From: Marmoricola endophyticus
Lineage (GTDB): Bacteria > Actinomycetota > Actinomycetes > Propionibacteriales > Nocardioidaceae
Assembly: GCF_014644415.1 (NCBI RefSeq)
Contig: NZ_BMKQ01000001.1
Location: 2,741,217 to 2,805,216, forward strand
Length of the DNA stretch: 64,000 nucleotides
Reading direction: 5' to 3'
The translations under genes were made by a program, and so were the position numbers. How positions within the stretch are numbered: position 1 is the stretch's first letter; every line of letters begins with the position of its first letter. The notes under the pieces were generated by a model that had not been told where the DNA came from, ran no database searches, and saw nothing but the letters and a program-made list of their open reading frames with translations. Below are positions 30,425 through 44,517 of the stretch, piece by piece.

Positions 30425-31045
30425 GTGCGCCGCCTGGTCCTCGCCCCTCACATGGACGACGAGTCGCTGGGCTGCGGCGGTCTGCTGGCGAAGCACCCCG
30501 AGGAGTGCTCGGTCGTGGTCGTCACCGACAGCGGCGAGCAGCGGCGCGAGGAGCACGCGCGGGCGCTGGAGATCCTCGGCGTCGGTGAGTCGGTCGCGCT
30601 GGGGCTGCGCGACGGCGAGGCGCAGCTGCACATGGCCGACCTGGTGCGCCGCCTCGACGATGTCCTGCGCGAGCTGCGGCCCGACGAGGTCTACCTGCCG
30701 TTCCCGTCGCTGCACCAGGACCACATCGCGGTCTACGAGGCCGGGATGCGCGCCTGCCGGATCTCGATGAGCCCCGACCACTGGCTGCCGTCGACGGTGC
30801 TCGTCTACGACATCGCGGTCTACGACCTCAACCTCTACCCGTCGGACCTGACCTGGAACACCTTCGAGCGGCTGACGGAGGAGCAGGTCGACCGCAAGGT
30901 GGCCGCGTGCGAGGCCTACGCCTCGGAGAACCCGGGCGGCGACCACCCGATGAGCAGCGTCAAGCAGATCGCCGGCGCGGTCGGCAAGGTGCGGCTGGTG
31001 CCGTACGCCGAGCAGTACGCCCTGGTCCGCCACATCCGGCGGTGA
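30425..31045 (+). CDS. PIG-L family deacetylase
   Basis: A 206-residue zinc-dependent amidase-type deacetylase. It shows the metal-binding P-H-M-D-D-E (8-13) and the distal H-Q-D-H (97-100), with D-S-G-E after the third strand. The family removes N-acetyl groups from amino sugars (for example in mycothiol or glycan synthesis). Here it precedes WbqC by 6 bp within the glycan locus, so an N-acetylated sugar nucleotide or glycan intermediate is the likely substrate; MshB is the other possibility but its usual neighbours are absent. Confidence 0.82.
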   Translation: MRRLVLAPHMDDESLGCGGLLAKHPEECSVVVVTDSGEQRREEHARALEILGVGESVALGLRDGEAQLHMADLVRRLDDVLRELRPDEVYLPFPSLHQDHIAVYEAGMRACRISMSPDHWLPSTVLVYDIAVYDLNLYPSDLTWNTFERLTEEQVDRKVAACEAYASENPGGDHPMSSVKQIAGAVGKVRLVPYAEQYALVRHIRR

Positions 31046-31051
31046 GGGCCG

Positions 31052-31690
31052 GTGATCGTGGCGATCCACCAGCCGGACCTGCTGCCGTACTCCGGCTTCT
31101 GGTTCAAGATGGCGACCTCGGACGTGTTCGTCGTCGCGGTGCACGACCAGTTCCAGAAGCACGGCTACCAGCGCCGGGTGACGATGCGGGAGGCGTGGTG
31201 CTCCCACCGGCTGGTCGGCAAGCCGTCGCTGGTGCCGATCGACGACGTCGAGGTGGCGGAGGGCTGGCAGCAGCACCTGTGCGACGTGATCCGCGGCCGC
31301 TACACCGGTGCCCGGCACTGGCGTGACCGGGGCGGCGAGCTGCTGGAGCGGATCTCCGCGTGCACGGGCACGACCCTCGACGAGGTGAACCTCTCGATGA
31401 TCCGGGCCGTGCGCGACCTGCTGGGCATCGGGACCGAGCTCGTCGTCACCGCGCCGCCCCGGCAGGCGGGCATCGACCGGCTGATCGAGCAGGTCGCCAC
31501 GGTCGGCGGCACCGAGTACGTCTCCGGTGCGGGCGGGGCCGCCTACCTCGGCGCCGACGCCGACGAGCGGTTCGCCGACCACGGCATCACGTTGCGCTGG
31601 TCGGCGCACGTGCCCGCCTCGCCGGACTCGATCGTCACCGTGCTGATGGACCACGACGACCCGATGGACGTCGTACGCCGCACCGCCTGA
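31052..31690 (+). CDS. WbqC-family protein
   Basis: A 212-residue protein with the WbqC signature at its start (A-I-H-Q-P-D-L-L-P-Y-S-G-F-W-F-K-M, residues 4-20) and K-H-G-Y-Q-R-R and A-Y-L-G strings later. WbqC genes occur in O-antigen and other glycan clusters and are thought to act in making modified amino sugars, but the reaction has not been settled. It is in one unit with the PIG-L deacetylase. The start is GTG 31052. Confidence 0.82.
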   Translation: MIVAIHQPDLLPYSGFWFKMATSDVFVVAVHDQFQKHGYQRRVTMREAWCSHRLVGKPSLVPIDDVEVAEGWQQHLCDVIRGRYTGARHWRDRGGELLERISACTGTTLDEVNLSMIRAVRDLLGIGTELVVTAPPRQAGIDRLIEQVATVGGTEYVSGAGGAAYLGADADERFADHGITLRWSAHVPASPDSIVTVLMDHDDPMDVVRRTA

Positions 31691-31770: not shown

Positions 31771-32793
31771 TCACAGCTGCGACAGCAGCACCGCGAGCCG
31801 CTCGGCCCCCGCCTCCGGCGAGAACCGCTGCTCCCACCGGAGCCGTGACGCCTGCCGGGCCGCCTCACGCTGCTCGGCGGAAGCGCGGAGTGCGTCGCCG
31901 ACGACCCGCGCCAGGTCCACGGCGTCGTCCGCGCGCGCCACCCAGGGGTGCTCCGCCCCGGCGACCTCCGGCAGCGCCCCGGCGTCCGAGATCACGAACG
32001 GGACGCCGCTGCCCATCGCCTCGGCCGCCACCAGTCCGAACGGCTCGGCCCAGGTGGACGGGAACACGGCCAGGTCGACGCGGTCGAAGAAGTCGTCGCG
32101 ATCGATCCAGCCGACCCGGTCGACCGCGTCGCCGAGAGGCGCGAGAGCGGCCTCCACGACCTGCACGTCCTCGGCGGTGCCGAAGCGCGCCTCGCCCGCG
32201 ACCAGGAGCCGGGCGCTCAGACCCTCGTCCCGCAGGCGGCGGACGGCGCGAGCGAGGAGGTGGACACCCTTGTCGACGGTCGTCCTGCCGAGGAAGCCGA
32301 TCGTGGGCGACTCGGGCAGCGGCGCGGCCGGGCGGAGCACGAGCGGCTCCGTCCAGTTCGGCAGCACCGCCGTGTGGCCGACTCGCGCACCCATCGACTC
32401 GGACGGCACGACGACCGCTCGCGCTCCTCGGACCGCGAGCAGGCGTGCGCCCTTCTGAGGGCCCTCGGGCTCCCGGTGCAGGTGCACCACGCGGTCCCGG
32501 TGCCCCGCGGTCGCGGCCGCCGGGAGCAGCCCGTTGCACCACAGCAGCCCCTGCCGTTCCCGCCGGTCCCAGGCGCGGAGTGCGACGGCGTACGAGCGTC
32601 GGTCGCGGACGTCGAGCGTGACGACCGCGAGACCGGTCGCCGACGCGGCCTCGACCAGACCCGAGGGGTGCCGCGGTCCCACGACGGTGACCCCGTGGCC
32701 GAGGGAGCGTGTCGCCTCGGCGAGGTGCAGCAGCATGACCTCCCCGCCGCCCAGGTCGCCGTTGGTGGTGGCGATCGTGAGGTGACCGCTCAC
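31771..32793 (-). CDS. Glycosyltransferase family 4
   Basis: A 340-residue GT-B enzyme: G-D-L-G-G-G-E near the start, the V-P-S-E-S-M hinge, I-G-F-L-G-R-T-T-V-D-K-G-V-H at the second domain and [20 protein letters not shown] as the donor site (E-P-F-G-L-x-x-x-E). It is last in a four-gene operon beginning at 37263. Its GTG overlaps the polymerase gene stop by 4 nt. Confidence 0.85.
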   Translation of the reverse strand: MSGHLTIATTNGDLGGGEVMLLHLAEATRSLGHGVTVVGPRHPSGLVEAASATGLAVVTLDVRDRRSYAVALRAWDRRERQGLLWCNGLLPAAATAGHRDRVVHLHREPEGPQKGARLLAVRGARAVVVPSESMGARVGHTAVLPNWTEPLVLRPAAPLPESPTIGFLGRTTVDKGVHLLARAVRRLRDEGLSARLLVAGEARFGTAEDVQVVEAALAPLGDAVDRVGWIDRDDFFDRVDLAVFPSTWAEPFGLVAAEAMGSGVPFVISDAGALPEVAGAEHPWVARADDAVDLARVVGDALRASAEQREAARQASRLRWEQRFSPEAGAERLAVLLSQL

Positions 32794-33962
32794 GTCGGTG
32801 CGGGTGGGGGATCGGGCGGGCGAGCGGTCAGCAGGTGGTGCATCGCCGCACCGATGGCGATGGCGGCCGGGAGCTCGAGAAGCACCTCGCCGAGGTTCAC
32901 CGCGACGACCGCCGCGCAGATGATCGCGCCCTCGAGCCAGCCGTTGCGCCGGGGCACCGGCATCCGGAGCAGTGAGACGAAGACGGTGACGGCCAGGACC
33001 GCGAGGATCCCGATCAGGACCCAGCCGCCCTCACGCTGGGCCGCGAGATAGCTGGAGTGGTAGAAGAACCGGTCCGACCCGAGGTTCACCTGGGCGGTCC
33101 CCGCACCGCTGCCGAACCACGGGGAGGCCGCGACGTCGACCTTCTCCTGGGCCAGGAGCCGGTCCCGGAGGGCGTCGCTCCCGGTGCGGTCGGAGAACAG
33201 GCCGAGCAGACTCGTCTCGCGGGGGATGGTGGACACGACGTACGCGTAGACGGCGACGATCGGGATGCTGAACGCGGGGCGTACGCGACGACCGGTCAGC
33301 ACCCACGCGCCGGCGAACACCGCGGCGAGCAGAGAGGTCCGGGAGAGGGTCAGCACGACCGCGACCGCCACCACCACGGCCACGACCCGCCGCAGCCAGG
33401 TCCGGTCGCCGGCACCGACGGCGACGCACCCGAGGACCGTGAGGACGTAGCCGGCGAGGTTCGGGTCGCCGAGGGTCCCGCTCAGCCGGCCGACGTAGGT
33501 GTCCGGGCCGAGGCCGGCGACGGTGAGGGCGACGGTCAGCACCAGACCCACGCCCAGCCCTCGCGCGGCGGAGGGGAGGTGGATCCGCCCGGACGCGACG
33601 AAGATCGCGAGCACCGCCCACAGCCCGAGGTGGAGGAGGCGGCGGTAGGGCGCCAGGTCGTTGTGGGCGGAGACGAGGGCGAGCCATACCGGCACCGCCA
33701 GGACCAGCAGGACGAACCAGGTCGGCAGCTTCGCCGGGACGGCCGGTCGGCGGAAGGCGGCGAGCGCGCAGAGCGCGCCGGGGGCGATCTCGTTCGCGGG
33801 CAGGCCGAGCCCCGGGACGAGGAGCGCCGGGAAGGCGAGGAGCACGAACGCCGCGAAGTCGGGGAGGTGCAGGTCCTTGCTGCGGTCCTCGACGTCGGGC
33901 CTGACGCCGTACGCGTTCTGCGTGCGCCGGGTCGTCCGGCCCTCGACGACGCGGTCGTTCAC
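32790..33962 (-). CDS. O-antigen ligase / Wzy-like polymerase
   Basis: A 390-residue polytopic membrane protein with about ten hydrophobic segments. The large loop before the last helices has the Wzy_C/WaaL hallmarks: R-D-R-L-L-A, then P-W-F-G-S-G-A-G and H-S-S-Y-L-A-A-Q-R-E-G-G-W. The family either polymerises repeat units or ligates glycans; in a locus with Wzz and LCP proteins polymerase is the more likely role. GTG 33962 and the stop both overlap neighbours as GTGA. Confidence 0.85.
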   Translation of the reverse strand: MNDRVVEGRTTRRTQNAYGVRPDVEDRSKDLHLPDFAAFVLLAFPALLVPGLGLPANEIAPGALCALAAFRRPAVPAKLPTWFVLLVLAVPVWLALVSAHNDLAPYRRLLHLGLWAVLAIFVASGRIHLPSAARGLGVGLVLTVALTVAGLGPDTYVGRLSGTLGDPNLAGYVLTVLGCVAVGAGDRTWLRRVVAVVVAVAVVLTLSRTSLLAAVFAGAWVLTGRRVRPAFSIPIVAVYAYVVSTIPRETSLLGLFSDRTGSDALRDRLLAQEKVDVAASPWFGSGAGTAQVNLGSDRFFYHSSYLAAQREGGWVLIGILAVLAVTVFVSLLRMPVPRRNGWLEGAIICAAVVAVNLGEVLLELPAAIAIGAAMHHLLTARPPDPPPAPT

Positions 33963-35026
33963 CCCAGCACCCCGTCGTACACGGCCGCGATCCTGGCCGT
34001 CATCGCGGCCACCGACGGCCAGCCCTCGGGCAGCGCCGGGCGGGTCCCCCGGTCGAGTCCCTGGCTGGCGAGCACGGCAGCCACCGTAGTCGGGTCCTCG
34101 GGGTCGACCAGGCACCTCTCCGGGACCAGCTCGGGGTTGCCGCCGACGGGGGAGGCGACGACCCCGACGCCGCGGGCGAGGCCGTCGAGGATCGCGTACG
34201 AGCAGTTCTCCCAGACCGAGAGCTGGGCGAGCACATCGGCCTCGGCGAGCAGCGGGCCGGCGTCGACGTGTCCCGGCAGGTCGACGCGGTCGCCGAGACC
34301 GAGGCGGGACACCTGGGCCCGGAGGTCGCCCTCGAGCGGCCCGGTGCCGGCGAGGGTGAGCCGCGCGGCCGGGTGCTCGGCCGCCAGCAGGGCGAACCCG
34401 TCGAGGAGGCGGTCGAGGCGCTTCTCCGGCGCCAGGCGGGCGAGGCTGACGACGTGCGGGCCAGGGGCGTGGGCGGCGCTGCGAGACGACGCGTCGACGC
34501 CGTTCGGGACCACGGCGGTGGTCAGCCGCGGCGGCAGCCGCCACTTCGTCAGGGCGGCGTCGAGGGTGGCGTGGGAGACCGCGACGAAGCCGTCCGTACG
34601 ACGCAGCCGGAGCCGGTGCAGGCGTGCCTTGAGCGCCGACCGCGCGGTCGAGCGGTGGTAGACGAGGTCGTCGGCGGCGATGCCGTGCTCGGTGGTGACC
34701 AGCCGCTGACCCCGCTGCTTGCCGAGGGAGGCGACGACGTCGGCGTACGAGAGGTGGCTGTGCACGACGGCCGGTCGCAGCCGGCGCTGCGCGCGACGCA
34801 GGGCGACGAGGGATGCCGCCAGGCCGTGTGCCGGGCCGATCCGGTCCACGACGACCTCGGCGCCCGCGCCCCGCAGCACGCCCACGACCGGGCCGTCGGG
34901 CACGAGGAACACGACCCGGTAGCCCGGGATCTCGACGCGTGCGACGTCGGCGGCGTGGCGGGCGACACCGCCGAGATCCGAGACCGGCAGTACCCACAGC
35001 ACGGTCGGTGGGGCGCTCAGAACCAC
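33959..35026 (-). CDS. Glycosyltransferase family 4
   Basis: A 355-residue GT-B enzyme: S-D-L-G-G-V-A-R-H near residue 16, V-H-S-H-L-S-Y-A-D, V-P-N-G-V-D, the R-L-A-P-E-K-R-L-D-R-L-L donor-domain start, and W-E-N-C-S-Y-A-I-L-D-G-L-A-R-G at the donor site. GTG 35026 overlaps the preceding gene by 10 bp and has GGAGGAG touching it, so the exact start is not certain. It is third from last in its operon. Confidence 0.83.
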   Translation of the reverse strand: MVLSAPPTVLWVLPVSDLGGVARHAADVARVEIPGYRVVFLVPDGPVVGVLRGAGAEVVVDRIGPAHGLAASLVALRRAQRRLRPAVVHSHLSYADVVASLGKQRGQRLVTTEHGIAADDLVYHRSTARSALKARLHRLRLRRTDGFVAVSHATLDAALTKWRLPPRLTTAVVPNGVDASSRSAAHAPGPHVVSLARLAPEKRLDRLLDGFALLAAEHPAARLTLAGTGPLEGDLRAQVSRLGLGDRVDLPGHVDAGPLLAEADVLAQLSVWENCSYAILDGLARGVGVVASPVGGNPELVPERCLVDPEDPTTVAAVLASQGLDRGTRPALPEGWPSVAAMTARIAAVYDGVLG

Positions 35027-37263
35027 TCCTCCAACCGCTCGAGGGCGGTCCAGAAGCCCTCGCCGTCGTTGACGTGGCCCTGCCAGATCTCCGGGATGAA
35101 GCCGGCCCGCGGCGCGAGCCGGTCGAGCTGCTCGGCCAACACCGGCCAGTCCACGTCGCCCTCACCCACTTGCACACCCTCGCCGTCGACGCCGGTCGCG
35201 TCGACGAGGTGCAGGTGCTCGGTGTGCGGGGCGAGGGTGTCGACGACCTCGGTGAAGGGCACGTCCAGCCATGTGGCGGCCAGCCTGGAGTGCGACACGT
35301 CGAGCACCAGCCGGCGCTCGTGGGCGCGGGCGAACGCGGCGGTGTCGTCGGGTCGGACGAAGAGGTTGCAGTAGAGCTGGCCGCCCAGGTACCAGGGGTA
35401 CGGCGGCAGCGTCTGCGCGCAGAGACGTACGCCGGCGTCGTCGACCTGCGCGAGCCCGTCGGCGACCCGCTCGTAGAGCGCCGGCAGCTGCGAGGGGTGC
35501 AGGTGCGCGTCGTGGGTGAATCCGCCGAGGCTGGCGATCACGACGGGCGCGTCGTCGAGGGTGAACCGCGGGGTCAGCGCCCGGGTCAGGTCGACGACGC
35601 GCTGCAGCTCGGCGATCGAGCGGCGCCAGTGGTCGTCGTCGGAGGAGGCCAGGTTGAGCAGGAAGTCGCCGGCGAACAGGTCCGGGCTGTGCACGGCCAG
35701 GCCGAGCGGCTGGCGCTCGGTGAACACGCCCGCAGGGTCGATCTCGAGGTCCTTGTAGGACAGGTGCAGCTCGAGGAAGTCGGGGTTCGACATCGCGGCG
35801 AGCGGGCCCGCGTCGTGGTAGCGCACCGGCAGCCCCCACGGGCGCCGGAAGCGGTAGCGGCGCGCCCGGGCGCCGCCCTCCTCCAGGTCGGCGGCGTAGA
35901 AGTAGTCGCCGGCGGCCAGGTCGCGCCGCGCGGTCCGACCGACCAGGCGGTCGAGGGCGTTGGGCTGCAGACCTCGGCCGGGGGAGCGGACGTCGACCGC
36001 GTCCGCGGCGATCGTCTCCCCTGCGGCGACCGGGCGCGCGGCGACCAGGCTCTTGGCGAGGTTGACCCGGTTCATCCGCTCCCCGGTCGAGACCGAGCGC
36101 GGCGCGTTGCTCCCCATCGCCTCCTCGAGCTCGCGCACACGGCGGACCATCGCGGCGAACTCGTCGGGCAGCAGGCTGACCTTGTGGTCGTTGCCCTCCA
36201 GGTCGCGGTCGGTGGTGAAGTGCTTCTCGACCACCACCGCACCGAGCGCGACCGCCGCCAGCGGGACGTGGAACCCGCGCTCGTGCCCGGAGTAGCCCAC
36301 CGGGCAGCGCCCGATCTCGGCCAGCCGCTGCAGGTAGCGGAGGTTCACGTCCTTGTACGGCGCGGGGTACGTCGACTGGCAGTGCAGTAGCGAGTACGCG
36401 ACCCCGGTCTCGCGCAGCACCGCCACGGACTCCCGGATCTCGCCCTCGGTGGCCATGCCGGTGGAGACGACCATCGGGAGACCCGTGGCCGCCATCCGCC
36501 GCAGCAGGTCGTGGTTGGTGAGGTCGGCCGAGGCGACCTTGAGCGCGTCGACGCCGTACTCCGCCAGCCGGTCGACGCTGAGCGGGTCCCAGGCCGTGCA
36601 CATCAGTCCGACCCCGGCCGCGCGAGCGTGGTCGAAGACCTGGGCCAGCTGGTTGGCCGAGAGGTTGTACCTCGCCAGCAGGTCCAGCGTGTACTGCGGG
36701 CCGAGGTCCTCACCGGCGCTGGCCCCGTCCGCCTGGCGGTACGTCGCGTCCAGGTCACGCAGCTGGAACTTCACCACGTCGGCCCCGGCCTCGACCGAGC
36801 GGTCGACCAGCTCCTTGGCGAACGCGACCGACCCCTGGTGGTTGATGCCGATCTCGCTGACCATCAGGGCCGGGCGGCCCGGACCGACCGCGTGCCGACC
36901 GATCCGCAGCTCGTCGCCTGTGTCGACGGCGATCGCGACCAGCCGGCCGAGGTCGTCGACCAGCGGGACGTGACCCACGCCGTCGCCGAACAGCGGCCGC
37001 ACGTCGCCGGGAGGGGTGCGCTCGTGCGCCGAGCGGACCGCCCGGTTGGCGACCGTGAGCACCGGCGCCTCGAGGTCGACGGTGCTGCCGTTCGCGCTCA
37101 CCCAGCGTCGGAAGTCGCCGTCCGACATCGCGCCCTCGAGGTGACCGTCGCCGGTGACGACGAACACGATGCGCGCCCGGTTGGCCGTGACCGCCTCGAG
37201 AGCCTGGAGGACGGTGTCCTCTGTGTCGACGACGTACGGCGCCACGTGTCGCTCGATGAGCAC
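35017..37263 (-). CDS. Four-domain nonulosonate synthase: CBS + NeuB + SAF + TIM barrel
   Basis: A 748-residue protein. Residues 1-120 form a CBS pair (M-S-D-G-D-F-R-R, H-V-P-L-V-D-D). From about 130 to 390 is a NeuB-type synthase (V-S-E-I-G-I-N-H-Q-G, A-D-V-V-K-F-Q, G-Y-S-G-H-E, V-E-K-H-F-T-T-D), which condenses phosphoenolpyruvate with a six-carbon amino sugar. Residues 400-470 are a SAF domain (S-L-V-A-A-R, R-S-P-G-R-G-L). From 485 to the end is a sugar-isomerase-like TIM barrel (H-S-P-D, D-V-S-H-S-R, E-I-W-Q-G-H). GTG 37263 follows TAGACT by 6 nt. It is first in an operon with two GTs and the polymerase. The N- and C-terminal additions suggest regulated or channelled synthesis. Confidence 0.85.
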   Translation of the reverse strand: MLIERHVAPYVVDTEDTVLQALEAVTANRARIVFVVTGDGHLEGAMSDGDFRRWVSANGSTVDLEAPVLTVANRAVRSAHERTPPGDVRPLFGDGVGHVPLVDDLGRLVAIAVDTGDELRIGRHAVGPGRPALMVSEIGINHQGSVAFAKELVDRSVEAGADVVKFQLRDLDATYRQADGASAGEDLGPQYTLDLLARYNLSANQLAQVFDHARAAGVGLMCTAWDPLSVDRLAEYGVDALKVASADLTNHDLLRRMAATGLPMVVSTGMATEGEIRESVAVLRETGVAYSLLHCQSTYPAPYKDVNLRYLQRLAEIGRCPVGYSGHERGFHVPLAAVALGAVVVEKHFTTDRDLEGNDHKVSLLPDEFAAMVRRVRELEEAMGSNAPRSVSTGERMNRVNLAKSLVAARPVAAGETIAADAVDVRSPGRGLQPNALDRLVGRTARRDLAAGDYFYAADLEEGGARARRYRFRRPWGLPVRYHDAGPLAAMSNPDFLELHLSYKDLEIDPAGVFTERQPLGLAVHSPDLFAGDFLLNLASSDDDHWRRSIAELQRVVDLTRALTPRFTLDDAPVVIASLGGFTHDAHLHPSQLPALYERVADGLAQVDDAGVRLCAQTLPPYPWYLGGQLYCNLFVRPDDTAAFARAHERRLVLDVSHSRLAATWLDVPFTEVVDTLAPHTEHLHLVDATGVDGEGVQVGEGDVDWPVLAEQLDRLAPRAGFIPEIWQGHVNDGEGFWTALERLEEWF

Positions 37264-40290: not shown

Positions 40291-41844
40291 TCAGCCGCTC
40301 TCGCCGGTGGAGCCGTTCCACCCGCCGGCGATGTCGGCGACGACCCGCCAGCGCGGGTCGACCTGGTAGGCCCGGCCGCCGGCCTCGGCCCTGCTGAAGA
40401 ACCACGGCGCGACCGTGTCCGCGTGGTTGTCGCCGTGCCGGACGTTGCTCGCGTACGCCGCCCAGTAGGAGAAGGTCGAGTTGGTGATCACCGGCCGCCG
40501 AGCGGCGGCCACCTCGGCGAAGTTCGCCAGCGCGGAGTCGCTCGGGGCGGCGAGCTCGACCTCGTGCTCCTCGGCCAGCCAGCCGAGCCGGGTGCGGCAC
40601 CACTCGGGCCCGTCGGAGACGATGCGTACCCGGCTGACCGGCGCCCCCTCCTGCGCGGCCGCGAGGGCGGCGCGCAGGTAGGCCACCTGGTCGAAGCCGT
40701 AGGTGACCTGGTGCTCGGGGACGCTGTAGTAGTCGCCTCGCCGGACGTTGAGGGTGACCAGGCCGGGGTCCGGGTCGGTGGTGACGTCGAGTGCCGCCGA
40801 GCCGAGCAGCCGGGCTCGTACGAAGTCGGCCAGCTCGTCGGCGGTGAAGTCCAGGCCGAACGCGCCGTACGTGCGCAGCAGCGGGTCCTCCCGCCGGTCA
40901 CGGCGTCGTACGTCGTCGGCGACGAGGTCGTCGAGGGTGCCCAGCGACGTCGCCCAGCGGTCGAGGACCGGCGTACGGAGCACCCGGCAGTCCCGACCGG
41001 CGGCGCGACGGGTGTGCGCGGCGAGCAGCAGGTAGAGCAGGTTGCCGAATCCCATCCAGGGCGGAGCGACGATCACCGTCGGCCGGTTCGTCCGCGGCGC
41101 AGCCCCCGTCCCCGGCACCTGGGCCGAGCGGACCACGTCGGGCCCGGCGAGCGCGCCGTCGGGGTCCCAGGTTCGCCATCGCTTCAGGTCGACCTCGGTC
41201 ACCGGCCCGTGCGGTGACCTGGCAGGGCGGACGAGATGCAGGTCGGGGGCGCCCGCCCGCGAGCCCGGCCGGTCGACCGTGCTCCCGTCCGGCCCGACCC
41301 GCGCCAGCGTGTGCGTGCGGAACGCGACCCGACCTCGCCGGTCGCGGCTGCGGTCGAGCAGCCAGCGATCGCCGTCGAGGACGGCGTCGTGCACGGGGAC
41401 GCCAACGACGTCGGCGTCAGTGGCAGCGAGGGCGTCGGAGAGCGATTCGCCACGGGCAAACCCGCGTTCGTCGGGACCGGCCACGAGCACCCAGTCGGCG
41501 CCGGCACGCCGAGAGCGGCGGGCCAGGGCGGTGAGGAGCTCACCGTCGGTCGCCCAGGCGTCCGTGCTCGTGCCGACGAGCGCAGACCCGCGCTGCGCGA
41601 GCGACCCTCCGGTGCCCCCCATGTCGGCGACGGCGAGGTGACTGATCCCTTGGACGGCCCAGCGCTCTTGGTCCGGCCAGGGGTCGCCGTCGCGCACGAT
41701 CGTCACCAGCCAGACCTCGCCCGGGCGTCGGGGCCCACGCAGGTCGGCGGACCAGGTCAGCCGGACCCGACGTCGTACGCCGGCCCGTGCGGCGCGTAGC
41801 AGGGTGCCGCCCGTCGTACGGACCAGGGTGGTGAGCCGGCTCAG
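40291..41844 (-). CDS. Fused glycosyltransferase: GT2/GT92-like N-domain + GT11-like C-domain
   Basis: A protein of up to 517 residues. The N-terminal part (to about 230) has V-W-L-V-T-I-V-R-D-G-D-P-W and W-A-V-Q-G-I-S-H-L-A-V-A-D, like GT92-type enzymes that open with a call to act at a distance, but without a clear D-x-D. The C-terminal part (about 255-517) resembles alpha-1,2-fucosyltransferases: G-F-G-N-L-L-Y-L, N-V-R-R-G-D-Y-Y and I-T-N-S-T-F-S-Y-W. No ATG/GTG/TTG exists near the 5' end; CTG 41844 overlaps the upstream stop as CTGA. GTG 41706 is the first standard start and would cut into strand 1. It is last of a seven-gene operon. Confidence 0.7.
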   Translation of the reverse strand: MSRLTTLVRTTGGTLLRAARAGVRRRVRLTWSADLRGPRRPGEVWLVTIVRDGDPWPDQERWAVQGISHLAVADMGGTGGSLAQRGSALVGTSTDAWATDGELLTALARRSRRAGADWVLVAGPDERGFARGESLSDALAATDADVVGVPVHDAVLDGDRWLLDRSRDRRGRVAFRTHTLARVGPDGSTVDRPGSRAGAPDLHLVRPARSPHGPVTEVDLKRWRTWDPDGALAGPDVVRSAQVPGTGAAPRTNRPTVIVAPPWMGFGNLLYLLLAAHTRRAAGRDCRVLRTPVLDRWATSLGTLDDLVADDVRRRDRREDPLLRTYGAFGLDFTADELADFVRARLLGSAALDVTTDPDPGLVTLNVRRGDYYSVPEHQVTYGFDQVAYLRAALAAAQEGAPVSRVRIVSDGPEWCRTRLGWLAEEHEVELAAPSDSALANFAEVAAARRPVITNSTFSYWAAYASNVRHGDNHADTVAPWFFSRAEAGGRAYQVDPRWRVVADIAGGWNGSTGESG

Positions 41845-42533
41845 AGGTCGGCCCTGCCGGCCAGGTCGGTCAGCCGCTGCTCGGCCGCCGCGAGGTCGGC
41901 CTCGGTGTCGACGTCGACGCCCTCCACCTCGTCCATGACGAACAGCGAGATCCGCCCACCGAGGCGGTTGTGCTGCTCGCGGTAGACCGCCGGGCGGGTG
42001 AGGTAGAGCGAGCCGGTCTCGCGGTAGCGCAGGTCGGCCGGACCCATGTCCTGACGACGCAGCCGGTTGGCCACGTCGTACGACGCGACGGGTGCGCCGT
42101 CGGGCCGCAGCTCCCACACGAAGGGGGGCTGGGGGACCACTCCGACCATCGAGTCCACGCCGTCGGCCTCGAACTGCTCGACGGCGCGGGCCAGCGTGCC
42201 GGGCAGGCGGACCGGAGAGGTGGCCTGCAGCAGGAGGACCGCCGACGGCTCGGTGCCGAGGCTGTCCAGCGCGTGCTCGACGACCGGCTCGGTCGGGGTC
42301 TCGTCACGCGCGAGATCGGCGGGGCGCAGGAAGGGGACGGCGGCCCCGGCGTCCCGGGCGACGCCGGCGATCGCCTCGTCGTCGGTGGAGACGACCACGT
42401 CGGTGTCGCCCAGCGCGAGGGCGTGCTCGATCGTCCACACGATCAGCGGCTTGCCGGCGACCACGCGGAGGTTCTTGCCGGGCACACCGCGGGAGCCGCC
42501 GCGCGCGGGGACCAGGCAGAGCAGCCGGCTCAC
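41841..42533 (-). CDS. NeuA-like acylneuraminate cytidylyltransferase
   Basis: A 230-residue enzyme that would activate a nonulosonic acid with CTP. It shows the signature L-V-P-A-R-G-G-S-R-G-V-P-G-K-N (7-21), V-V-S-T-D-D-E, L-Q-A-T-S-P-V-R and the metal site D-V-D-T-E-A-D near the C-terminus. It partners the NeuB-type fusion 3 kb away. No hydrolysing UDP-GlcNAc epimerase or Neu5Ac-specific gene is in the window, so the exact sugar is unknown. GTG 42533 and its stop overlap neighbours. Confidence 0.88.
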   Translation of the reverse strand: MSRLLCLVPARGGSRGVPGKNLRVVAGKPLIVWTIEHALALGDTDVVVSTDDEAIAGVARDAGAAVPFLRPADLARDETPTEPVVEHALDSLGTEPSAVLLLQATSPVRLPGTLARAVEQFEADGVDSMVGVVPQPPFVWELRPDGAPVASYDVANRLRRQDMGPADLRYRETGSLYLTRPAVYREQHNRLGGRISLFVMDEVEGVDVDTEADLAAAEQRLTDLAGRADL

Positions 42534-43525
42534 CCGATCGCCTCCAGGGCCGCGGCGACCGCGCGAGCGGGCTCGACGGCCGGCCGAGCCGGCGCCGGCG
42601 TCGGGTCCGATCCCCAGGGGCGCATGGCGTAACGGTCCCAGAACTCCTCGAGCCAGGCCGGAGGGGTCGGGAGATCGACCCACGCGGGCAGGCCTCGGGC
42701 CGCCGCCTCGAGGACGCCGGTGGAGAAGACGCTCACCACGCCGCCGGTGAGGGCCGAGAGCGGCTCGTCGGACCGGTCCAGGGTCATGCCGGAGGCCTCC
42801 CAGCGTGCGTGCGTGCGCCGGCTGGCCCGGTCCCGCTCGGCAGGGTGGGGCCGGTACGTCGCCCCGTGGGCAGCGCAGAACGCCTCGGCGGCCGCGGCCA
42901 GGTCGCGCCGGGGGAGCTCGGCGCCGTGCAGCTGGCCGAGGTAGGTCAGCGGGGGCGAGGAGGCGGTGGCGGGAGCCGGGTGCGCGGCCGCGTCGTGCAG
43001 CAGCTGCGACCCGACGATCTCGGCGCGCTCGGCGCCCCAGAAGTCGGCGTCCGCCGCGCTCCAGGCCAACAGCGTCGCCCCCGGGGGCAGCGGCGGCGCG
43101 AGCGGGGTGAGCAGCCCGTGCTGGACGACCAGCTCGGGGACGTCACGCCGACGCGCCTCGGCGTGCCCCACCGCGCCGAGCGCGAGGTAGTGGCCGGCGG
43201 TGAGCACGGCGGAGACCGGCCCGAGCGGCTCGCCGTCGCCCCACCGTTGCTCGGACCAGCCGTGCTCGGGGAGGAGATCGACGACCGGGACGGGGGACAG
43301 GACCGCGACCCGCTCCGGTGCCAGCGCGGCGACCGGCGCCAGCAGCGCGGCCCGGTTGGAGGGCGAGAGGCCGTCGAGCACGACCAGCAGGTCGGCCTCG
43401 GCGCTGCCCCGCGTGAGGACACCGGCCGTTCGTACGGGGCGCAGCCGTCCTCGGACCGCACGCAGTGGGTGTCGGCGCCGCTGCCACCGCCGCCAGGCGG
43501 AGAGGTCGGCGTACCTCAGCCCCAC
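42530..43525 (-). CDS. Unknown protein in the nonulosonate operon (GT-B-like)
   Basis: A 331-residue protein I cannot assign firmly. It has L-L-V-V-L-D-G-L-S-P-S-N near residue 46, L-V-V-Q-H-G-L-L-T-P-L, P-P-L-T-Y-L-G-Q-L-H-G-A, R-P-H-P-A-E-R-D and V-V-S-V-F-S-T-G-V-L-E-A-A-A-R-G-L-P. The last two resemble the donor half of polysialyl- or CDP-glycerol-type GT-B transferases. It lies between a CgeB-like GT and NeuA, so it may be the transferase that uses the CMP-sugar; this is inference. GGAGGAG stands 10 nt before GTG 43525. Confidence 0.6.
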   Translation of the reverse strand: MGLRYADLSAWRRWQRRRHPLRAVRGRLRPVRTAGVLTRGSAEADLLVVLDGLSPSNRAALLAPVAALAPERVAVLSPVPVVDLLPEHGWSEQRWGDGEPLGPVSAVLTAGHYLALGAVGHAEARRRDVPELVVQHGLLTPLAPPLPPGATLLAWSAADADFWGAERAEIVGSQLLHDAAAHPAPATASSPPLTYLGQLHGAELPRRDLAAAAEAFCAAHGATYRPHPAERDRASRRTHARWEASGMTLDRSDEPLSALTGGVVSVFSTGVLEAAARGLPAWVDLPTPPAWLEEFWDRYAMRPWGSDPTPAPARPAVEPARAVAAALEAIG

Positions 43526-44517
43526 GTCGACCACAGCTCCTCCAGCACCGCGACGCGGTGGTCGACGGTGTGCTCGGCCAACGTCCGCGCGGCGCCGCGG
43601 CGGCGGACCCGCTCGGCCCACGCGGCATCGGTGCGCGCCCGGGTGAGGAGCTCGACGAGGTGCTCGAGGTCGTGGAAGACCAGCAGCTCCTCGCCGGGCT
43701 CGTACAGCTCGCCGACGTCGCTGCGGTCGATCAGCTGCAGCCCACCGACTCCGCACGCCTCGAAGGTGCGCATCGTGAAGCCGTCCTGGTCACCGTGCAC
43801 GTTGAGCGCACCGCGCGCGCCGGCCATCGCGGCGTACGCCGCGGGGCGGTCCAGGTCGCGCCCCGTGGGCAGCGCCGGACGGGCGCCGCCCCAGGTGCGC
43901 AGCCGATCCACCGGGTGGCGTGACCAGTCGCGCCCGTACGCCGTCACCGCGACGCCGGCGGCCTGCAGCCCCAGCAGCAGCTCCTCACGGCGGGGGTAGC
44001 GGGCCCCGACGAAGACCACGTCCTCGCGCTCCCGGACCGCCCCGTGGGCGACGTACGGGTCGTGGGCCAGCGGCAGGTGTCGCGCCGGCACGCCGGCGGC
44101 GTCCAGCCGGGCCACGTCGTGCGGGGAGTACGACGCCACGGGACCCACCTGGCCCAGCCGGTCGAGCGGGTGGGCCATCCGCGCCAGCTCGTCGTAGAGC
44201 CAGAGCACGCGGGGCAGCCGCCGCTCGTCGAGCAGGCCCCAGAAGTCCTCGCCCAGCACGTCGCCCTTGACCACGAGCACGACCTCGGGCCGCTCGGCCC
44301 GCAGCCGGGCGACGGTCCGCGCGGTGATCTCGGCGCGCAGCTGCTCGGGGCTCGTCCGCCCGAGTCGCTCCGGCAGCTCGTAGCGCAGCTTCTTGCGCAC
44401 CGGCCCGACGTCGTCATAGCGGTGCTCGGCCACCTCGTGGCCGCGCCGGCGCAGGGCGTCGGCGATCGAGGTGCCGTAGCCGTGGAAGGTCGGGGTGACC
44501 AGCAGCAGCCGGCTCAC
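43516..44517 (-). CDS. CgeB-like glycosyltransferase
   Basis: A 333-residue protein resembling CgeB/Glyco_trans_1_2: L-L-L-V-T-P-T-F-H-G-Y-G opening, V-V-L-V-V-K-G-D, W-L-Y-D-E-L near 125, S-Y-S-P-H-D, V-V-F-V-G-A-R-Y-P-R-R and the C-terminal A-L-N-V-H-G-D-Q-D-G-F-T-M-R-T-F-E-A-C-G-V-G-G, the family's donor-site hallmark. It overlaps its upstream neighbour by GTGA and its downstream neighbour by 10 bp. Donor and acceptor are unknown. Confidence 0.8.
   Translation of the reverse strand: MSRLLLVTPTFHGYGTSIADALRRRGHEVAEHRYDDVGPVRKKLRYELPERLGRTSPEQLRAEITARTVARLRAERPEVVLVVKGDVLGEDFWGLLDERRLPRVLWLYDELARMAHPLDRLGQVGPVASYSPHDVARLDAAGVPARHLPLAHDPYVAHGAVREREDVVFVGARYPRREELLLGLQAAGVAVTAYGRDWSRHPVDRLRTWGGARPALPTGRDLDRPAAYAAMAGARGALNVHGDQDGFTMRTFEACGVGGLQLIDRSDVGELYEPGEELLVFHDLEHLVELLTRARTDAAWAERVRRRGAARTLAEHTVDHRVAVLEELWSTWG

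Follow-up and report, generated by a model that had tools for sequence, protein, structure and literature searches.

A conserved CBS–NeuB–SAF–TIM-barrel fusion of Actinobacteria, a putative synthase of a non-amino ulosonic acid

A single gene of Marmoricola endophyticus encodes a protein of 748 amino acids in which a pair of CBS repeats, the two domains of a NeuB/PseI-type ulosonate synthase and a sugar isomerase-like TIM barrel are joined, and this fusion is a conserved family across hundreds of actinobacterial species rather than an isolated join. The gene belongs to a polysaccharide locus in the 64,000-nucleotide stretch of DNA that was analysed as a whole (hereafter, the window). The explanation that we tentatively prefer, with somewhat less than even confidence, is that the protein would be a feedback-controlled enzyme of one chain that makes a non-amino ulosonic acid, similar to Kdn or Kdo, for a polysaccharide of the cell surface. 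The four domains, the invariant catalytic residues, the obligate character of the fusion and the conserved polysaccharide locus are direct observations; the substrate, the role of the barrel and the ligand of the CBS pair are argued below with differing strength.

Domain architecture and integrity of the fusion

The gene is read on the minus strand, from 37263 to 35017; the sequence-only reading, which had proposed the four-part architecture, gave no strand. The gene and its domains are as follows.

35017..37263, minus strand: four-domain ulosonate synthase gene, GTG start, 748 aa
36910..37263, minus strand: CBS pair, residues 1-118, with the invariant DGDxRR motif at residues 48-53
36094..36867, minus strand: NeuB catalytic barrel, residues 133-390
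35878..36081, minus strand: SAF (antifreeze-like) domain, residues 395-462, with Ser427 in place of Arg314 of NmeNeuB
35020..35847, minus strand: sugar isomerase/epimerase-like TIM barrel, residues 473-748, with candidate metal ligands Q617, D655, H683/H685 and E725

A Pfam domain search recovers the proposed architecture in full, with all four domains above their cut-offs: CBS (residues 9-55, 28.6 bits against a cut-off of 24), NeuB (residues 152-386, 262.9 bits), SAF (residues 404-461, 50.2 bits) and AP_endonuc_2, the xylose-isomerase-like TIM barrel (residues 514-744, 70.1 bits). The second CBS repeat scores below the Pfam threshold and is visible by profile comparison, in the AlphaFold model and in structural matches. 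The AlphaFold model agrees with the domain search: the CBS region (residues 1-122) is modelled with a pLDDT of 93.8 and retrieves CBS pairs in a structure search, and the barrel (residues 466-748, pLDDT 90.2) retrieves sugar epimerase and endonuclease IV barrels.

Scanning one genome per GTDB species yielded 438 relatives of the barrel, and the architecture was checked for the best 80 of these. All 80 carry the whole four-part fusion, 77 of them in one intact frame, which rules out a chance join of adjacent reading frames or a frame error; of the remaining three, one (L110) runs into the edge of a contig and two (L059 and L105) have a broken frame. The best 80 of the 438 relatives come from Nocardioides, Phycicoccus, Knoellia, Micrococcus, Rothia, Sinomonas, Arthrobacter-type bacteria, Rathayibacter, Microbacterium, Brachybacterium, Tessaracoccus, Cutibacterium and one member of the Acidimicrobiaceae. 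The interrupted copy of Rothia aeria (AP017895; L105, 8592-10843) consists of two overlapping frames split at a run of T between SAF and the barrel, owing to either a sequencing error or a natural split. In Tessaracoccus massiliensis (NZ_LN623540.1), two letter-for-letter identical stretches of 20.8 kb (L097, 12209-33051; L098, 34196-55038) are separated by about 1.1 kb and inverted relative to each other, each with the fusion, perhaps as an assembly artefact.

The barrel was found in 24 of 245 genomes of the window's own family, where the full-length proteins examined are 65-71% identical, and in 6 of 394 genomes of the class and 19 of 297 of the order of Rothia (Micrococcales). Since in both of the latter samples it always resides within frames of at least 712 residues, it behaves as an obligate part of the protein; a lone barrel occurred in none of these approximately 690 actinobacterial genomes. 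Of 296 genomes taken across the phylum, 36 others contain a NeuB relative; no alignment to these extends over the barrel, and a CBS pair is absent from all of them. Three candidates for a CBS-NeuB protein lacking the barrel, from Sinorhizobium mexicanum, Azospirillum lipoferum and genome G226, were rejected as ordinary synthases without CBS, the last having shown a partial N-terminal overlap with the fusion. In the same G226 genome (L139, C1:266500-271500), an ordinary aminotransferase-NeuC-NeuB run is directly followed by a gene that seems to join a domain of cytidylyltransferase type to a PEP-mutase-like one. A full-length copy, 48% identical end to end, is located on a megaplasmid of Ensifer canadensis; recent transfer between phyla was considered and set aside, as this is the only plasmid relative in PLSDB and no phage with the full fusion was found.

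The polysaccharide locus

Comparison of 24 representative loci revealed a conserved set of genes around the synthase, encoding a CTP_transf_3 cytidylyltransferase, a family defined by the motifs YRPHPxExD and FSTGxLE, GT4 and GT2 transferases and a Wzy-like protein. The corresponding genes in the window include the following.

31771..32793, minus strand: GT4-type glycosyltransferase of the same locus
32790..34655, minus strand: Wzy/O-antigen-ligase-like membrane protein (Wzy_C 27 bits, below the cut-off; start uncertain)
33959..35026, minus strand: GT4-type glycosyltransferase, its first 10 bases shared with the end of the synthase gene
41844..42683, minus strand: CMP-ulosonate synthetase (CTP_transf_3, PseF-like, below the PseF cut-off; start codon uncertain)
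42533..43756, minus strand: conserved neighbour with YRPHPxExD and FSTGxLE motifs, candidate ulosonate transferase

In most loci the CMP-ulosonate synthetase gene is directly upstream of the synthase, and in orthologous loci the Wzy_C match exceeds its cut-off. The YRPHPxExD/FSTGxLE family is present in 22 of the 24 loci, with both motifs invariant; its member in the window matches no Pfam or NCBIfam model and a profile search of the PDB was empty, but the invariant motifs suggest a candidate GT-B ulosonate transferase. A member of this family upstream of the fusion in locus L100 showed 29% identity to part of the barrel, which was taken as a chance match.

Amino-sugar precursor genes are absent from the conserved neighbours of the fusion loci. 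Relatives of GDP-mannose dehydratase and reductase genes occur at 8 of the 23 comparison loci, and their likelier role is the formation of a GDP-deoxyhexose. In Ensifer, a gene for a bifunctional mannose-6-phosphate isomerase/GDP-mannose pyrophosphorylase is followed by those for the cytidylyltransferase and the fusion, an order compatible with a mannose-derived acceptor and equally with the nearby GDP-sugar genes. Inside the window's locus, on the opposite strand, lie two adjoining genes, one for a deacetylase weakly similar to bacillithiol BshB (30425-31045, plus strand) and one for a WbqC-like-looking protein with no NCBIfam match (31052-31690, plus strand).

The synthase core and its substrate

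By its catalytic and metal-binding residues and its SAF domain, the core is a ulosonate synthase of the NeuB/PseI type. All the functional residues listed for NmeNeuB (PMC6795526) that were compared (E25, K53, Q55, T110, K129, S132, Y186, S213, H215, E234 and H236) are conserved in the window protein, and the equivalents of E25, K53, T110, K129, S132, Y186, H215, E234 and H236 are invariant in 79 fusion sequences. The fusion thus shares the NeuB-SAF core with the N-acetylneuraminate synthase NmeNeuB/SiaC (PDB 1xuu, 4ipi), which however has neither CBS pair nor barrel, is specific for ManNAc and carries an arginine, Arg314, that the fusion lacks. This residue of its SAF domain is reported to contact and position the N-acetyl group of ManNAc and to be required for activity (PMC6795526); the equivalent residue is serine (Ser427) in 79 of 79 fusion sequences. 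When 16 ordinary synthases with SAF from actinobacteria were compared, 15 kept the arginine, and it is also found in PseI of the Campylobacter jejuni type (8h2c).

The genome-wide content of amino-sugar pathways was examined in 14 genomes with the fusion. NeuC was above its cut-off in none of them and PseB in one, and a full-length DegT sugar aminotransferase is missing in 6, including those of Rothia, Kocuria and Micrococcus. The replacement of Arg314 by serine, the lack of NeuC and the missing aminotransferases point to a non-amino ulosonate resembling Kdn or Kdo as the probable product, and the amino-sugar substrate envisaged in the sequence-only reading is disfavoured. NeuB and SAF together would then condense PEP with a sugar lacking an N-acetyl group. 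Against a non-amino product count the DegT enzymes of the other 8 genomes and NanE, which offers an alternative route to ManNAc-6-phosphate and has clear matches in 3 of 11 genomes, though it was not found in the genome of the window.

An alternative is that, its additional domains apart, the protein is a common synthase of N-acetylneuraminate, legionaminate or pseudaminate, supplied with amino sugars made elsewhere in the genome. Consistent with it, the best NCBIfam models for the synthase are NeuB_NnaB and PseI, and the window genome has one DegT aminotransferase, beside a PseB-like gene about 1 Mb away. Both scores, however, are far under the curated cut-offs of these equivalog models (305 against 399.65 bits for N-acetylneuraminate synthase, TIGR03569; 220.9 against 340.25 bits for pseudaminic acid synthase, TIGR03586), and the loss of Arg314 in all 79 sequences and the gaps in the amino-sugar pathways speak against it as well. 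Furthermore, although the fusion is the sole NeuB in 10 of 11 genomes checked, the exception, Brachybacterium epidermidis (G878), retains a classical pseudaminate-like cluster of PseB, DegT and a 360-aa NeuB (C11:335547-340868) on a different contig from the fusion, a coexistence that suggests another function for the fusion. An ordinary synthase is therefore considered decidedly improbable.

In the phylogenetic tree, the fusion family forms a separate clade (support 100/100) on a long branch. Its nearest neighbours, joined at a fork with support 85/91, are synthases of Streptomyces-like genomes that have in common with the fusion the GYSGHE motif and the absence of Arg314, but lack SAF and the barrel, have serine at D247 and form a 100/100 clade of their own. 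These enzymes are presumed to be Kdn synthases: Kdn teichulosonic acid is present in the cell wall of Streptomyces coelicolor (PMC7831098), and Kdn is formed from mannose-6-phosphate and PEP (PMC7845648).

The C-terminal barrel

The barrel has the sugar isomerase/epimerase (AP_endonuc_2) fold by Pfam score, pLDDT and structural alignment. It aligns with MJ1311 (3wqo, Z 22.3) and with 3-epimerases of the tagatose/allulose type at Z of about 21-22 over 236-243 residues with 14-17% identity, and MJ1311 is its sole significant profile match (E 2.4e-6). At the strand ends it has Gln617, Asp655, His683/His685 and Glu725, all invariant in 79 sequences. By alignment to 3wqo and strand position, Gln617 (glutamine in 79 of 79) occupies the place of the first glutamate metal ligand, so that of the Glu-Asp-His-Glu set of DTE-type ketose 3-epimerases the last three members are kept and the first is replaced; the barrel also differs from these enzymes in being joined to a synthase. 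With glutamine at position 617, the barrel has lost one of the two glutamates that act as acid/base in the tagatose/allulose 3-epimerase family, so it is not a standard 3-epimerase. Judging by its conservation, which is almost as strong as that of the synthase, it is probably an enzyme nonetheless, and a role in preparing or processing a sugar, as initially suggested, is plausible.

In the explanation preferred here, the metal-dependent barrel would isomerise or epimerise a sugar, most likely supplying the acceptor of the synthase. This is the weakest step of the proposed mechanism. Acceptor supply is the first choice because the barrel is always fused, resembles sugar isomerases and has no other acceptor-making gene conserved nearby. 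The exchange of Glu for Gln, which may mean that the barrel performs other chemistry or none, counts against this explanation. Moreover, Streptomyces walls hold Kdn and none of the Streptomyces-type genomes sampled has the barrel, so Kdn formation as such need not require it.

The main rival, which we regard as somewhat unlikely, is that the barrel acts after the synthase, by epimerisation, dehydration or phosphate removal on the fresh ulosonate, to give an unusual product. Its C-terminal position behind the synthase, the loss of the first canonical glutamate, which suggests non-standard chemistry, and the presumed formation of Kdn in Streptomyces without a barrel are in line with this possibility. 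So is the GYSGHE motif shared with the SAF-less synthases, which by analogy with human NANS hints at a phosphorylated substrate, together with the lack of a phosphatase among the conserved neighbours of the fusion loci. On the other hand, domain order is a poor guide to reaction order, and no member of the AP_endonuc_2 families is known to use 2-keto-3-deoxy acids as substrates or to work as a sugar phosphatase.

Finally, the barrel might lack catalytic activity and serve as a scaffold or for dimerisation, with the CBS pair left over as a structural remnant. The Gln617 replacement and the conservation of the CBS pair, which with a mean column entropy of 1.39 bits over the 79 sequences is the least conserved part (0.82 for NeuB, 0.94 for the barrel), would fit such a reading. 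Yet the conservation of the barrel almost equals that of the synthase and includes an invariant pocket (H525, Q617, D655, H658, H683, H685, E725 and H730) and PPxPWxxGGQ loop, and the (T/S)DGDxRR motif of the CBS pair varies only in S/T, DGDxRR being invariant in 79 of 79 sequences. A purely structural role for both is highly improbable.

The CBS pair

In the structural model, two CBS repeats fold as a pair of the KdsD type. A profile of 39 sequences has its top solved-structure match in 4o9k, the CBS pair of D-arabinose-5-phosphate isomerase (E 8.7e-11), which also ranks first in structure alignment (Z 15.5, ahead of 3k2v and 3fna at 14.9), and the region has weak NCBIfam matches to GutQ/KpsF. 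The KdsD/KpsF/GutQ proteins thus possess the CBS pair closest to that of the fusion in both sequence and fold and, like it, combine an isomerase with CBS control in a ulosonate pathway, but their isomerase part is a SIS domain and is not joined to a synthase. A CBS pair is also contained in PtmE, the nucleotidyltransferase of the legionaminate pathway; it too is on a nonulosonate-pathway enzyme, but with a different catalytic domain and at a different step.

Allosteric control by the CBS pair, which the sequence-only reading deduced, remains likely. The adenine-nucleotide ligand that it suggested is possible but less supported: as the pair is nearest to that of KdsD, and 4o9k presumably contains CMP-Kdo, a CMP-sugar is the better candidate. 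By this analogy, the pair would sense the CMP-activated product of the neighbouring cytidylyltransferase and adjust the flux by feedback; the ligand is a guess, because 4o9k scores only slightly above other CBS pairs (Z 15.5 against about 14, a margin of about 1-2 units). A complete one-chain pathway, in which the barrel makes an unusual acceptor for the synthase, the CMP-linked product shuts the enzyme off through the CBS pair and the ulosonic acid is one new to actinobacterial walls, is unlikely.

Significance

None of the parts is new by itself; what is new in this ulosonate synthase is the way they are joined, together with the loss of the arginine that binds the N-acetyl group. In the open-access literature searched, no description of the four-part architecture was found, nor any report that pairs NeuB with two or more of the other domains (CBS, SAF, TIM barrel), a CBS domain with sialic acid synthase, or xylose isomerase with NeuB and nonulosonic acids, and to that extent the initial statement that the architecture is uncharacterised holds. 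Hundreds of actinobacterial species, among them Nocardioides, Micrococcus, soil bacteria of the Arthrobacter type and the oral Rothia mucilaginosa, have a synthase of the sialic acid type but not the amino-sugar pathway that usually accompanies it. If the preferred explanation is true, these bacteria would place a non-amino ulosonic acid in a surface polymer by means of a compact regulated enzyme, and CBS feedback control of ulosonate pathways would be extended, with CMP-ulosonate as a specific candidate ligand.
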